NCBI GenBank assembly: GCA_945903645.1
Contig: CAMDOM010000009.1
Coordinates: 1 to 64,000 of the forward strand
Origin: Chryseobacterium gleum
GTDB lineage: Bacteria; Bacteroidota; Bacteroidia; UBA10329
Length of the DNA stretch: 64,000 bases
Reading direction: 5' to 3'
Part shown: positions 2,725 to 32,984 of the stretch, in pieces
Numbering within the stretch: position 1 is the first letter of the stretch
Layout: every line of letters starts with the position of its first letter
The notes under the pieces: generated by a model
Seen by the model: the letters and a program-made list of their open reading frames with translations, nothing else
Database searches by the model: none
What the model was told of the DNA's origin: nothing
Translations under genes and position numbers: made by a program

Positions 2725-2767
2725 AAGAATAGGAGATGTCGCTCAAATCAGCGATTCTCCTATTCTT
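2725..2767. terminator. Bidirectional rho-independent terminator of hppA and mccA
   Basis: A 12-bp stem (AAGAATAGGAGA with TCTCCTATTCTT) is extended by TCGCT/AGCGA around a CAAATC loop, with A-rich sequence on the left and T-rich on the right, so it works in both directions. The mccA stop codon (minus strand, 2760-2762) lies inside the right arm, so the end of the coding sequence doubles as half of the terminator. Confidence 0.85.
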
Positions 2768-4727
2768 TTAGTTTTAGGAGGAGTGTATTTGCCTCCACGA
2801 ACTGACCATCCTGCACATACACATCCTCCACCGTGCCATCCTCTTCGGCACAGATGGTGTTCTCCATCTTCATGGATGACAGAACGACTAAGCCTTGGCC
2901 GTTGGTCACTGCGTCTCCTTTTTGCACCAGTACCTTCACCACCTGACCGGGCATGGGCGAAGCATAGCCACCCGCCAGTTTTTCTGGTTCTTTGATGGGG
3001 AATCGGTCTTTGAGAATGAGTTTGAGGGAACCAAGCTGGGCATTCCGCAGAAAGAACTCAGCTCCATTTTGGGCAACATGGAATTCCTGCTGCACACCAT
3101 CAATATCCAATCGCACCGAGCCATCCAAACATGAAAGTACGCGCACATCCCGCTGTGTTTCGCCAAAGGTGAAGTTTAGGGTACACCGCTCGTTGCGGTA
3201 GCTAACTGCAAGCTCCTCTTCACCGATGATGTAGGCCTCCATCTGTCCTTGATAGAAGCTGTTGCGCCAGCCCGATGGAAGATGGTGCAAAGTGGTTCGT
3301 TGCAATTCGCGCCCATGCCACTGATAGGTCGTGGCGGCAATGGCCATCAACTGCATCGTTTCGGCATTGGGCACAGGCAATTCGAGCTGCGCATGTTTGA
3401 GGAAATGCGTATCGTAGTTACCCGCTTGAAACTCATTATGCTCCAACAGTCGGATTAGGAAATCTTGATTGGTGGTCAGTCCCAAGCAGCGCAGATTGCG
3501 CAGAGTGTGTAGCATCTTGCGCTGCGCTTCCGCTCGGTCACGACCATGCGCAATGAGTTTGGCAATCATCGGGTCGTAGTGGACGGATATCTGCGAACCG
3601 GTCTCCACGCCTGTTTCGATGCGCAAGCCTTCCATGGCGGGCACGTGCCAATCTAGGATGGTTCCCGTTGCTGGAACAAAATCACGGTCGGCATCTTCTG
3701 CATAGAGGCGCACTTCGATAGCGTAGCCATTCCCATTCACCACTTCTTGCGTGATTGACAACGGTCGGCCTTCTGCCGAGGCGATTTGCATCTCCACAAG
3801 GTCAAGGCCCGTCACTTCTTCCGTCACGGGATGTTCTACTTGCAAGCGGGTATTCACTTCGAGGAAGAAGAACTCGCCCGTTTCGGTGAGGATGAATTCC
3901 ACCGTTCCAGCATTGTCATAGTTCAGCGACTTTGCAGCGCGCATAGCCGCTTCGCCCATCTTGGCGCGGGTATCTGCGGTTAGTGCTGGGGAAGGACTTT
4001 CCTCCACGATTTTCTGATACCTGCGCTGAATGCTGCATTCGCGCTCCAGCAGATGGATGGCATTGCCGTGCTTATCACCAAAAATCTGGAACTCCACGTG
4101 GCGGGCCGAGGGGAAATAACGCTCGATGATAAGTTCATCGTTACCAAAACTGCTCTTGGCTTCGCGCTTGGCCGAGTCTATCGCGCTTTCCAATTCCTTC
4201 GCCTCATTGACGATGCGCATGCCTTTGCCACCACCGCCCGCAGCGGCTTTCAACAACAAGGGGAAGCCCACACCCTTGGCTTCTTTCACCAATGTGTCGG
4301 TAGTCTGGTCTGTGCCCTGATAACCGGGAATGACAGGCACACCGTGATTCATCATCAGCCGCTTGGCCTCCGACTTGCTGCCCATGGCGTCAATAGCCTC
4401 TGGATTAGGCCCAATAAAGGTGAGACCAGCAGCAGCAACAGCCCGCGCAAATCCTGCGTTCTCCGATAGGAAACCATAACCGGGATGTATCGCATCAGCT
4501 CCCGAACGTTTGGCTGCATCGAGCAGTTTTTCCACGTTGAGATAGGATTCCGCAAGGTTGTTTCCTCCGATATGCAGCGCAACATCGGCCATGCGGACAA
4601 AGGGTGCAGCCGAATCGGCATCGGAATAGACCGCAACGGAACGGATTCCCAACTTCTTGCAGGTGCGGATGATGCGGCAGGCAATCTCGCCACGGTTGGC
4701 AATGAGAATGGTATGGATAGTTTTCAT
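2760..4727 (-). CDS. mccA: Acyl-CoA carboxylase biotin carboxylase/biotin carrier subunit, methylcrotonyl-CoA carboxylase alpha-like
   Basis: 655 aa, the usual length for fused BC-BCCP subunits. The N-terminus carries ILIANRGEIACRIIRTCKK (biotin carboxylase fold). Next come the ATP-grasp glycine loop AAGGGGKGMRIV and the core FFLEVNTRLQVEHPVTEEVTG with the conserved catalytic Glu/Arg residues. The C-terminal lipoyl-like domain ends with LSSMKMENTI, where Lys620 is biotinylated, exactly 35 residues from the end. It charges biotin with bicarbonate using ATP; the partner MccB transfers the carboxyl to the acyl-CoA. The gene lies 84 bp downstream of mccB on the same strand. The substrate (3-methylcrotonyl-CoA) is inferred from the partner and the neighbouring hydratase; propionyl- or geranyl-CoA are alternatives. 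Confidence 0.93.
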   Translation of the reverse strand: MKTIHTILIANRGEIACRIIRTCKKLGIRSVAVYSDADSAAPFVRMADVALHIGGNNLAESYLNVEKLLDAAKRSGADAIHPGYGFLSENAGFARAVAAAGLTFIGPNPEAIDAMGSKSEAKRLMMNHGVPVIPGYQGTDQTTDTLVKEAKGVGFPLLLKAAAGGGGKGMRIVNEAKELESAIDSAKREAKSSFGNDELIIERYFPSARHVEFQIFGDKHGNAIHLLERECSIQRRYQKIVEESPSPALTADTRAKMGEAAMRAAKSLNYDNAGTVEFILTETGEFFFLEVNTRLQVEHPVTEEVTGLDLVEMQIASAEGRPLSITQEVVNGNGYAIEVRLYAEDADRDFVPATGTILDWHVPAMEGLRIETGVETGSQISVHYDPMIAKLIAHGRDRAEAQRKMLHTLRNLRCLGLTTNQDFLIRLLEHNEFQAGNYDTHFLKHAQLELPVPNAETMQLMAIAATTYQWHGRELQRTTLHHLPSGWRNSFYQGQMEAYIIGEEELAVSYRNERCTLNFTFGETQRDVRVLSCLDGSVRLDIDGVQQEFHVAQNGAEFFLRNAQLGSLKLILKDRFPIKEPEKLAGGYASPMPGQVVKVLVQKGDAVTNGQGLVVLSSMKMENTICAEEDGTVEDVYVQDGQFVEANTLLLKLKE

Positions 4728-4778
4728 GAAATGAGCGAATTAGATTTTAAGGAATAAGCGAATGTTGGTGATAGTATT

Positions 4779-4813
4779 CTGATGTCTGACATCTGATTTC
4801 TGAGGTCTACATT
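4779..4813. repeat. Degenerate heptanucleotide tandem array (CTGANNT type)
   Basis: Five consecutive 7-mers, in register: CTGATGT, CTGACAT, CTGATTT, CTGAGGT, CTACATT. The array fills the end of the mccB-mccA spacer, and its last unit overlaps the mccB stop codon (minus strand, 4812-4814). A second heptad array of different sequence lies at 32868-32899, also on a stop codon. The organisation resembles short tandemly repeated repetitive (STRR) heptamers known from cyanobacteria; function unknown. Confidence 0.6.
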
Positions 4814-6410
4814 ACATCCTGAACACACCATAGCTCTCCGCTCCTTTGATAGGTGTGTTGTTTACCACTGCAAGGCAGAAACCAAGATGATTGCGTGTTT
4901 CGCGCGGATCGATGATGCCATCGTCCCACAATTGGCCGGTGGCAAACCACGCATCTGACTCTTTGCCCGCCTCGTTTATCATGTGTTGGCGCAACATGGC
5001 TGCTTGTGCTTCATCATAAGGAAGACCGGCCTTCTGTGCTGCCTCGCGCTGGATGGTTTCCATAACACCTGCCAGCTGCTCAGGCCCCATCACAGCGATG
5101 CGCGAATTGGGGTAGGAGAAGAGGAACCTTGGCTGATATGCCTGTCCGTTCATAGCGTAATTGCCAGCACCGTAGCTCGCGCCCATCATTATGGTAATGC
5201 TTGGAACTTCGCTATTGCTCACTGCGTTGATGAGTTTAGCCCCATGTTTGATGATTCCACCTTGTTCGTAGTCTTTGCCCACCATGAAACCCGTGATGTT
5301 CTGGAAGAATAGGAGCGGAGTATCATTGCGATTGCAGAGCTGGATGAAATGCGCGCCCTTGTTCGCCTCCTCCGAGAAAAGCACACCGTTGTTGGCTATA
5401 ATTCCCACTTTATACCCGTGGATTTCGGCCCATCCGCAAACCAACTTATCGCCCCATTCGGGCTTGAAAGGCGTGAATTTAGAACCATCTACAACACGAG
5501 CGATTATCTCGCGCATGTCGAATGGAGCCTTGATGTCTGGAGAAAGAATACCGAGCATTTCCTCCGCATCATATACAGGCGCTTCTACCTTGGGTTGTGG
5601 TGAGAAATGAATTCGTGGTGGACGGAGCGTGGCAACAATCTCGCGCGCAATGCGAATACCGTCCAATTCATCTTCGGCCAGATAATCGCTAACTCCAGAT
5701 ATACGGCTGTGCATCTCGGCACCTCCTAATGTTTCATCACCCACAATTTCATTAGTGGCCATTTTCACCAACGGTGGACCAGCCAAGAACACCTTTGCTT
5801 TTTGTTTCACAAAGACAGAATAGTCGCTCATGCCGGGGATATATGCCCCACCGGCCGTGGCATTGCCGAACACCACCGAGATGGTCGGGATTCCCTCTTT
5901 GCTTCTTCGGGTAATCTCGCGGAAACTGATGCCACCTTGATTGAATATGCGCGCCTGTTCGGGCAGATTGGCTCCCGCGCTCTCCACAAGGTTTACGACT
6001 GGAAGTCCATTCTCAGCCGCTATTTGCCCCAATCGCAAGCTCTTTTGCAACGTGGCATAGTCAATTGCACCGCCTTTGTTAGTGCCGACATTGCTGATGA
6101 CCATCACTAGTCGGTTGCAAACTAGTCCGATGCCGCCAACCACCGTTCCTCCTGGGCCAAAACCTCTACCGCCTAAACCAGCCAATGGAAGTAATTCAAG
6201 AAATGGGCTATCGCGGTCAAGGAGTAATTCGAGTCTTTCTCGGGCCAACAGATTGCCTCGCTCCTTGGCGCGTGCCACGTGCTTCTCGTTTCCTTGGCTG
6301 CGGCCTTCGGCCATTTTTTCATTCAACTTTGCGAGATGAGCTAACATGCCTTCACGATTCTGTTTGAACTGGTCGGTATGCGGATTGAGTGTGGTGCGGA
6401 TGGGTTGCAT
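4812..6410 (-). CDS. mccB: Acyl-CoA carboxylase carboxyltransferase subunit, methylcrotonyl-CoA carboxylase beta-like
   Basis: 532 aa, typical for MCC beta. The two crotonase-like carboxyltransferase halves are visible. The N-terminal half has KERGNLLARERLELLLD, the acyl-CoA site NLVESAGANLPEQARIF, and ATAGGAYIPGMSDYSVFVK with AGPPLVKMATNE. The C-terminal half has FQNITGFMVGKDYEQGGI, the biotin-side MMGASYGAGNYAMNG, and AVMGPEQLAGVM. The stretch GGAEMHSRISGVSDYLAEDE is closer to MCC than to propionyl-CoA carboxylase, as I recall these families. It lies between tetR and mccA on the minus strand, 44 bp after tetR, so the three probably form one operon. The product would be 3-methylglutaconyl-CoA, substrate for a hydratase such as the one at the window start. 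Confidence 0.93.
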   Translation of the reverse strand: MQPIRTTLNPHTDQFKQNREGMLAHLAKLNEKMAEGRSQGNEKHVARAKERGNLLARERLELLLDRDSPFLELLPLAGLGGRGFGPGGTVVGGIGLVCNRLVMVISNVGTNKGGAIDYATLQKSLRLGQIAAENGLPVVNLVESAGANLPEQARIFNQGGISFREITRRSKEGIPTISVVFGNATAGGAYIPGMSDYSVFVKQKAKVFLAGPPLVKMATNEIVGDETLGGAEMHSRISGVSDYLAEDELDGIRIAREIVATLRPPRIHFSPQPKVEAPVYDAEEMLGILSPDIKAPFDMREIIARVVDGSKFTPFKPEWGDKLVCGWAEIHGYKVGIIANNGVLFSEEANKGAHFIQLCNRNDTPLLFFQNITGFMVGKDYEQGGIIKHGAKLINAVSNSEVPSITIMMGASYGAGNYAMNGQAYQPRFLFSYPNSRIAVMGPEQLAGVMETIQREAAQKAGLPYDEAQAAMLRQHMINEAGKESDAWFATGQLWDDGIIDPRETRNHLGFCLAVVNNTPIKGAESYGVFRM

Positions 6411-31718: not shown

Positions 31719-32984
31719 ATGCACATCCCATTTCCCAATAGCCACCCCACCAGCGAGGAACTGTTCATCCAATTCGATGCGCTGTCGGCTAATGATGCCG
31801 ATTGGCGAAAGGGTCGCACCTTCAGCTTGGTGTTTTATCCCGGCCCAGAAGTAGAAGCCGTTCTAAAGCAAGCCTACACCCGATTTATTTTCGAAAATGG
31901 CTTGAGCCCCGCTAGCTTTCGTAGTCTAGGGCGCATGGAAAGTGAGGTGGTATCTATCACCGCTAGTATGCTCCATGCGCCAGAGAGTGCTGTGGGCAAC
32001 ATGACTTCGGGTGGCACCGAGAGTATCATGTGTGCCGTTCGCGCCAGTTTAAAACATGCCGAAGCGAGAATTCCTAAAGGGGAGAAAGGCAACATCGTTA
32101 TTCCCGAAACCGCCCATCCTGCCTTCAACAAAGCCGCAGATTATTTTGGGTTAGAATTGCGCACGGTCAAATGCCATGGCGAGGCTTTGCAACTGAATGT
32201 GGCAGATATGCGCAGCCACATCGATGAATGCACTGTGATGCTGGTGGGTTCAGCGCCTGCATATCCGCATGGCATTATCGACCCGTTGGATGAAATTAGC
32301 GCTCTTGCCGTAGAGAAAAATGTATGGATGCATGTAGATGCTTGTGTGGGTGGCTATCTCATTCCATTTCTTGAGCAGATAGGCGAACCTGTTCCCGTGT
32401 TCGATTTTCGGTTGGCAGGCGTCAGTTCCATCTCCCTCGATTTGCACAAATATGGCTATGCCGCCAAAGGCTCTAGTGTAGTCATGTATCGCACTACAGC
32501 GTTGCGCAGTGGTCAGTATTACGTCTATTCCCAATGGCCGGGCGGCTTGTATGCCTCCCCTTCGTTTAGCGGGACGCGGCCAGGTGGTGCAATTGCCGCA
32601 GCTTGGGCCGTAATGCATTTTATGGGTAAGGATGGCTATGCCAATTATGCGCGCCAAACCTTGAATGCTGCACATAAAATTCAGCAAGCTGTTCGCGATA
32701 TAAAGGAATTGGCCATTGTGGGCAATCCTCTGCTACCAGTGTTTTCCATCCAGTCCATTTCAAGCATGGACATCTACCAATTGGGCGATGCCCTGTCCGC
32801 TAAAGGATGGCACTTGGACAGGCAACTGAATCCGCCCAGTTTGCACCTTTCTGTTTCAATTTTCCATACTCGTCACTCGTCACACATCACTCGTCACTCT
32901 TTTGGTCAAAAACAGGATCCACCCCCAACTCGTGCCGAAACTTGCCTCCGTTGTTCACAAACAAGTTGTAGTACTTCTGATTGA
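31719..32984 (+). CDS. PLP-dependent group II decarboxylase / sphingosine-1-phosphate lyase-like protein, abnormal C-terminus
   Basis: 421 aa from ATG 31719. The first 380 residues look like a Dpl1/group II decarboxylase. They carry the PLP phosphate site GNMTSGGTESIMCAVRASL, HPAFNKAADYFGL, VGSAPAYPHGIIDPL, and MHVDACVGGYLIPFLE with the pyridine-binding Asp. The Schiff-base lysine is Lys244 in SLDLHKYGYAAKG. After LNPPSLHLSVS the frame runs into a heptad repeat and 35 unrelated residues (HTRHSSHITRHSF...), instead of the usual C-terminal helix of about 40 residues. It also overlaps the convergent next gene by 98 bp. The gene is therefore probably truncated at its 3' end, perhaps by the repeat; activity is uncertain. 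The substrate could be a phosphorylated long-chain base or an amino acid. Confidence 0.82.
   Translation: MHIPFPNSHPTSEELFIQFDALSANDADWRKGRTFSLVFYPGPEVEAVLKQAYTRFIFENGLSPASFRSLGRMESEVVSITASMLHAPESAVGNMTSGGTESIMCAVRASLKHAEARIPKGEKGNIVIPETAHPAFNKAADYFGLELRTVKCHGEALQLNVADMRSHIDECTVMLVGSAPAYPHGIIDPLDEISALAVEKNVWMHVDACVGGYLIPFLEQIGEPVPVFDFRLAGVSSISLDLHKYGYAAKGSSVVMYRTTALRSGQYYVYSQWPGGLYASPSFSGTRPGGAIAAAWAVMHFMGKDGYANYARQTLNAAHKIQQAVRDIKELAIVGNPLLPVFSIQSISSMDIYQLGDALSAKGWHLDRQLNPPSLHLSVSIFHTRHSSHITRHSFGQKQDPPPTRAETCLRCSQTSCSTSD
32868..32899. repeat. Heptanucleotide tandem array (ACTCGTC type)
   Basis: Four and a half consecutive 7-mers: ACTCGTC, ACTCGTC, ACACATC, ACTCGTC, ACTC. It lies where the PLP lyase loses its family similarity and overlaps the stop codon (32887-32889) of the minus-strand gene. 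Same unit length as the array at 4779-4813 but a different sequence. Confidence 0.7.

Follow-up and report, generated by a model that had tools for sequence, protein, structure and literature searches.

Heptad arrays at operon junctions and their connection with genes for 23S-IVP four-helix-bundle proteins: a probable solo copy between mccB and mccA

Tandem heptads and IVP genes in described systems

Degenerate heptanucleotide arrays are known from cyanobacteria as STRRs, which are mainly intergenic. A second layout of relevance here is that of RAYT genes and REP/REPIN sequences: the gene, coding for a Y1 transposase, is flanked by inverted repeats, and inverted pairs as well as single repeats of the matching type are dispersed besides. 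Within the P6b stem of the tRNALeu intron, degenerate heptanucleotide repeats pair into a hairpin (PMC3488679), and both these and STRRs resemble the arrays treated here in being degenerate and tandem. For neither does the text consulted report a link to IVP genes (PF05635; 23S rRNA IVP, a four-helix bundle), whereas such a link was measured here, also on cyanobacterial plasmids. Xanthomonas campestris harbors 186 sets of degenerate GGGANTN heptads with 70 cases of close convergent sites, and the GGGAATC heptads of Xanthomonas were studied as formers of G-quadruplexes (both PMC4692102). Furthermore, the TAACTGA repeats of Beggiatoaceae, Cyanobacteria, and Bacteroidetes are intergenic tandem heptads with a patchy distribution over the phyla that lie near start and some stop codons and were interpreted as possible regulatory sites (MacGregor 2015, PMC4679880). 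The same paper overturns a remark of the initial annotation, which knew of no account of such arrays for Bacteroidota; the terms 'four helix', 'intervening sequence', 'IVP', and 'S23' are all absent from its text.

The IVS of Coxiella (428 nt) comprises an S23p ORF preceded by GACAGAT heptamers, and its complementary ends form a stem (PMC4990558). It shares with the IVP elements described below an ORF of the IVP family, tandem heptamers, and complementary, stem-forming ends, but lies inside 23S rRNA, whereas our elements are situated between protein genes; the excerpted text does not connect its heptamers with other arrays of the genome. Homology between IVP and Avd proteins has been noted (PMC10053308), as have 18 IVP genes in cas loci, there as an interesting function (PMC3936711). 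Both heptad arrays and IVP genes were already on record, neither with an accepted role, and, among the matches listed for the open-access literature and as far as their excerpts go, no paper was found that links heptad arrays with free-standing IVP genes. The parts are already known; the connection between heptad arrays and IVP genes is new. It provides a testable origin for the arrays and a structural logic for the IVP family, whose members may form an array-binding ring.

The array at the mccB-mccA junction

The window (the whole stretch of 64,000 nucleotides that was analysed) carries the array between two genes of the minus strand (Table 1), where the order on the coding strand is carboxyltransferase stop codon (4814-4812), TCAGANN-type array, 51 nt of other sequence (4728-4778), and start of the biotin carboxylase gene, giving a spacer of 84 nt (4728-4811) with the array included. 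Read on the + strand, the units are CTGATGT, CTGACAT, CTGATTT, and CTGAGGT (consensus CTGANNT), followed by CTACATT, which keeps three of the five conserved bases (C, T, and the final T). The initial annotation had seen five in-register 7-mers that fill the end of the spacer and run into the mccB stop codon; four of these units are indeed exact but the fifth is degenerate, and the array does reach the stop codon, by two bases, but leaves the stretch next to mccA unfilled.

Table 1. Coordinates of the array, its neighboring genes, and further repeats in the window
Feature	Position	Strand	Remarks
mccA	2760..4727	-	Biotin carboxylase + biotin carrier domain; NCBIfam matches, all sub-cut-off
Tentative second array	4728..4768	.	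Decayed; NAGNGAAT octads on + (by eye); period-8 score 4
Solo end-array, four exact heptads (putative)	4779..4806	-	CTGANNT on +, TCAGANN-type on coding strand
Fifth unit CTACATT	4807..4813	-	Degenerate; 2-base overlap with mccB stop codon
mccB	4812..6410	-	Acyl-CoA carboxyltransferase family; top NCBIfam match TIGR01117, sub-cut-off
Second solo heptad array of the window	32868..32899	+	ACTCGTC type; inside predicted ORF near its 3' end

The four-unit CTGANNT pattern has one exact occurrence compared with 0.00 expected from 100 shuffles, and a chance origin is rejected on this expectation together with the excess of period 7 in a sample of the genome (see below). The TRF score of the array is weak (33 at 4777-4803, 3.9 copies). 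A structured RNA at the array itself was likewise considered and is unsupported (z -0.55). The octad-like array adjoining mccA has a periodicity that, taken alone, is not significant; comparable ATTCGCTA octads can be made out by eye in the mccB-mccA spacer of two related genomes (G002 and G005). The gap between the two genes amounts to 3 nt in two relatives, and others possess different arrays or an inserted gene.

Several of these neighborhoods display further peculiarities. At L097 (G004), the C-terminus of mccB is 98% identical to that in the window and divergence starts directly 3' of the stop codon; mccA is absent from the sequence stretch examined there, possibly reflecting a rearrangement at the array. 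Two other genomes (G001, locus L098; G006, locus L100) have an unrelated gene, presumably antirepressor/RhuM-like as judged by eye, inserted 3' of mccB and adjoining degenerate repeats.

Similar arrays recur throughout the genome and the genus. When two mismatches were allowed, a pattern of three units gave 29 matches in the genome under study compared with three in a reversed control (overlapping registers counted), and with up to one mismatch there were 75 near-matches in nine genus genomes compared with four in the control. CTGANNT arrays are present in all nine, including two (G007 and G008) without a detected IVP gene. A sample of 458,556 bases of the genome, window included, contains eight period-7 arrays scoring at least 12 compared with 0.3 in shuffles; the outcome that the initial annotation named as refuting, no more arrays than in shuffled sequence, did not arise. 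For period 14, the double of 7, the counts in this sample are 7 compared with 0.3, and for period 8 they are 3 compared with 0.6, two of the three being perfect AGCCGCAC arrays (G000:C1:3298-3325 and 191636-191684). Periods 4, 5, 10, 11, and 13 stay near chance, with no arrays at all for 5, 10, and 11, and periods 6, 9, 12, and 15 are elevated too, like codon repeats. The mccB-type array consists, as STRRs do, of tandem degenerate 7-mers above chance frequency, and the likeness to STRRs drawn at the outset is strengthened by IVP elements on cyanobacterial plasmids, which carry similar heptad arms.

Regarding their placement, seven of eleven places are at gene junctions and four inside predicted ORFs, one of the four just 3' of the preceding gene's stop; these are raw counts from mechanical ORF calls without a chance expectation, and the bias toward gene 3' ends that had been suspected is not shown by them. 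The ACTCGTC array of the window matches no resident IVP arm, and its pattern recurs at C46, C31, C42, and C58 (up to three mismatches). Another array of the genome, of the CGTCCCT type (G000:C1:49142-49170), lies in frame inside an ORF that we take to encode histidyl-tRNA synthetase, with its CT-rich strand providing no stop. A compound array at G000:C3:992-1077 is of AG type and then of CT type, the two parts being of two different resident element types, and begins 11 nt past a stop codon with no intervening gene.

Inverted heptad arms on both sides of IVP genes

Two groups of array matches bracket a small PF05635 gene, with an internal stop in the genome under study, that lies between two methionine synthase parts; this name (metH), like pdhA-pdhC and ftsQ-ftsA below, is our own assignment from the sequence unless annotated. 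Altogether, four PF05635 genes were found in this genome, none of them within the 64,000-nt window, and all four have mutually inverted heptad arrays on both sides, with a period-7 score of at least 9 on either side. Units are specific to each resident element, and the right arm shows the reverse-complement type of the left one; by automatic alignment three of the four loci reach the arm threshold of 30, with L042 at 24. Among three IVP proteins scanned, all score above the cut-off of TIGR02436 and none matches a transposase model in NCBIfam, while one has a distant match to Avd of diversity-generating retroelements (NF033474, E 0.00022, sub-cut-off). Reverse transcriptase RVT_1 has no match in the genome (95% complete), which leaves an Avd-like retro-mechanism without an enzyme in sight.

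The association extends far beyond this genome. IVP genes occur in seven of nine genus genomes; 30 loci were taken from 39 matches, and of these 30 loci 17 score at least 9 for period 7 on both sides, three more (L052, L054, and L056) have period 8, and the remainder are weak on at least one side. The family is present in 116 of 148 genomes sampled from the phylum of the window. There, 70 loci among the matches listed (30 plus 40 chosen from the top of the list, with high scorers over-represented) gave period 7 at a score of at least 9 in 97/140 flank windows compared with 5/140 windows further out, period 8 in 22 compared with none, and other periods between 4 and 12 in at most 7 compared with 1 (period 6). 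Much the same was seen for 92 loci comprising 80 from named records of several phyla (the best 80 of at least 584 matches) and 12 on cyanobacterial plasmids (12 of 23 records), with period 7 in 127/184 flank windows compared with 8/167 outer ones and period 8 in 27 compared with 1. Armed copies were encountered in records named Bacteroidota, Cyanobacteria, Acidobacteria, Planctomycetes, Clostridia, Gammaproteobacteria, SAR324, and candidate phyla, many of them metagenome bins.

Taking all sets together (191 of 192 loci; L068, a piece of a split gene, was left out), a period-7 or -8 array stands on at least one side of 178 IVP genes and on both sides of 134. Period-7 arrays occupy 262/382 IVP flank windows compared with 53/155 other junctions near IVP genes, some of the latter apparently being part of gene-less hairpins or of a second IVP locus, and 10/219 junctions in the genome under study. 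IVP genes are distinguished by their complementary arms and not by the mere presence of an array. When the left flank was aligned with the reverse complement of the right, 61 of 97 loci scored at least 30 (three of 100 were left out, two for cut flanks and one for a split gene), compared with 1/97 for outer windows, 5/97 for the direct orientation, and 4/286 for swapped partners. At L045, the arms agree at 33 of 34 positions, the variable ones included. The named-record and plasmid loci yielded complementarity of at least 28 in 72/92 cases compared with 0/75, and for the full collection complementary arms were found at 122/191 loci (69 fall below the threshold), 116 of these 122 with period 7 (98) or 8 (18). 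Other genes of similar size rarely have such arms (3/108 in the same neighborhoods, all three adjoining an IVP gene, and 0/90 in the genome under study). The loci are not independent, since some represent the same site in related species. The median arm measures 31 nt for period 7 and 35 nt for period 8, which amounts to about 4.4 units in both cases; the elements have a median length of 471 bp.

Slippage can expand tandem arrays, and it is conceivable that the arrays are plain simple-sequence repeats, generated by slipped-strand mispairing in an unconstrained spacer and unrelated to any element. We consider this unlikely: periods 7 and 8 are far above other periods at IVP flanks, each unit of one arm has its inverted counterpart in the other (at L045 even at the variable positions), and the types of solo arrays match resident elements (see below). 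Moreover, slippage alone does not produce conserved unit cores next to two or three variable bases, although it would fit those arrays that are long and perfect (L146, L168) and the heptamer number that differs between Coxiella strains (PMC4990558). One flank of L146 (G061:C4) carries a perfect array of octads, TTGACCAG, whose great length shows that expansion is possible, and the arms of L264 and L218 have a best period of 9 (TTAGACTTC), so that 7 and 8 may not be the sole unit lengths.

Compared with the 23S IVS, full IVP elements possess the IVP ORF (all four loci of the genome under study) and complementary ends (122/191 loci; three of these four), but are located outside 23S rRNA, between protein genes, in the loci inspected, which makes them IVS-like and not IVSs.

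Insertion sites, solo arrays, and a candidate mobile element

Two junctions can be compared with and without the element. The pdhA-pdhC spacer measures 466, 476, and 469 nt in three genomes, where it accommodates an IVP gene flanked by two heptad arrays, whereas it is 9, 4, 9, 1, 6, and 4 nt long in six genus genomes lacking the element. Between ftsQ and ftsA, the genome under study carries a whole element whose array supplies a new stop codon to the upstream gene; in seven other genus genomes and, by eye, likewise in an eighth, the stop of the one gene overlaps the start of the other or is separated from it by 0-2 nt. It would seem that elements can enter operon junctions and leave the genes there intact. 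Inspection of ftsQ-ftsA by eye revealed no target-site duplication, the pdhA-pdhC spacers are too divergent to compare, and no recent jump was observed among the compared genomes.

The same sites speak to two further explanations. If the arrays were pre-existing landing sites for IVP genes, it would be understandable that ten arrays without an IVP gene occur in the 459 kb sample and only four IVP genes in the whole genome. However, insertion into a tandem array would leave direct flanks, while the 97 loci tested gave 61 inverted and 5 direct pairs, and pdhA-pdhC junctions without an element are bare (1-9 nt, no array). The inverted arms and the bare element-free sites lead us to reject this reading, which appears most improbable. 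Alternatively, the arrays could be operon-junction signals for regulation or processing (an RNase III stem, translational coupling, or a protein-binding site) that are maintained by selection and not by mobility. Translational regulation has been argued by MacGregor for the TAACTGA repeats (PMC4679880), L045 has a strong terminal stem, and 11 of 12 annotated elements on cyanobacterial plasmids sit between genes of one direction (with the IVP gene antisense in two of these). Yet arrays are missing from 6/9 pdhA-pdhC and 8/9 ftsQ-ftsA junctions of the genus (one by eye), solo arrays are found in either orientation and also within predicted ORFs, and the mccB array is unstructured; we regard such a role as quite unlikely to explain the arrays.

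The solo arrays, moreover, resemble the elements resident in the same genome. Six of the ten non-IVP period-7 arrays in the 458,556-base sample share their type with the arms of one or another of the four resident elements (4-mer cosine of at least 0.45; arrays unsplit, with arms cut automatically), compared with means of 0.5 for four random foreign elements and 1.12 for four random genus-mates, and six matches were reached in 0/500 draws of either kind. At a threshold of 0.35, one of 500 draws reaches six, for foreign elements and genus-mates alike; with hand-typed arms and one array split by hand, seven of eleven solo arrays match. The other four of the ten match no resident arm type. For the mccB array itself, the best match among the arms of 152 IVP loci is L040, the metH-linked element of the genome under study (0.77); the runner-up scores 0.54. 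When 25 CTGANNT arrays of the genus were picked, one per place, two proved to be the arms of the metH-linked element and two (L070 and L086) inverted pairs lacking an IVP gene, and for the remaining 21 the 3 kb locus showed no such gene. Dispersed repeats that match the flanks of a resident partner, here six of ten arrays and none of 500 draws, are a hallmark of REP/REPIN-RAYT systems, and the IVP element family shares their layout, but with a four-helix bundle and not a Y1 transposase as partner.

The arm type furthermore tracks the protein (Mantel r 0.178, 0/999 permutations, pairs below 80% identity), as measured for 112 of the 122 armed loci, those with an internal stop or a period other than 7 or 8 having been dropped. 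The mean arm cosine is 0.10-0.12 below 50% protein identity and 0.73 at 70-80% (15 pairs). L157 from the phylum of the window and L274 from a Trichormus plasmid are 74% identical and have TCAGAAT/TCAGAAG units in common, suggesting transfer of a whole element between phyla.

With a probability that we put at roughly three in four, the mccB array represents a solo end-array from a small mobile-element family encoding a 23S-IVP/four-helix-bundle protein. A full element (about 470 bp) would consist of an arm of four to five degenerate 7- or 8-mers, the IVP gene, and an inverted copy of the arm. It would insert between the genes of an operon. Once transcribed, its two arms could base-pair into a long stem with the ORF looped out, so that the upstream stop codon comes to lie near the downstream start codon. 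The arms would be the moving part: gene-less arms, as mini-hairpins or single arms, are presumably spread through the same genomes by IVP elements, and a single arm may have been inserted into an mccB-mccA junction like the 3-nt one of the two relatives. Stop triplets abound on the inward strand of the arms and, as 7 and 8 are not multiples of 3, fall in several frames, which would give the upstream gene a clean end. This strand is AG-rich with TAG as its commonest trinucleotide, and all three of its frames contain a stop in 93 of 232 arms, compared with 32 in shuffles and 56 on the outward strand. Folded as RNA, the L045 element has its arms close a long terminal stem around the ORF (z -3.59), which places the upstream stop and the downstream start at the foot of the stem.

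The architecture of the elements and the covariation of arm and protein, both read from sequence, suggest that the arrays may be bound by a pentameric ring of the IVP protein, which would contact several units of an arm, each subunit perhaps taking one. Two solved relatives, 2gsc and 2rld, have five chains each; 2gsc is XCC0516, the IVP protein of X. campestris, whose structure paper names five four-helix bundles in its title. Arm lengths of about 4.4 units were also considered as proof of a pentamer; the medians of 31 and 35 nt fit it but do not prove it. More tentatively, and with some doubt on our side, all of these systems could belong together as one class of mobile elements spanning the phyla listed above, with 7- or 8-mer ends read unit by unit by the subunits of a pentameric ring. 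The STRRs of cyanobacteria, the GGGAATC heptads of Xanthomonas, the TAACTGA repeats, the intron P6b heptads, and the 23S IVSs would then all be its products, and the link of IVP genes with CRISPR would reflect insertion and not an immune function.

The reported IVP-CRISPR associations may be insertions of this kind: annotated plasmid elements sit at cas6-cas4 and at cas10-cmr3. Another such host is a pair of ribonucleotide reductase genes. IVP genes in cas, cell-division, and metabolic operons may then be passengers, and guilt-by-association needs to be reconsidered for them. The array-flanked IVP elements at cas6-cas4 and cas10-cmr3 are those of L266, L269, and L271, all from cyanobacterial plasmids. 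As for carriage by phages, the IVP protein of L045 had no tblastn match in 50,697 phage records at 1e-5. Two strains of Flavobacterium columnare have a four helix bundle gene between those for guanylate kinase and nicotinic acid mononucleotide adenylyltransferase, in a predicted phage region (PMC5524665), and this gene may be another element at an operon junction.
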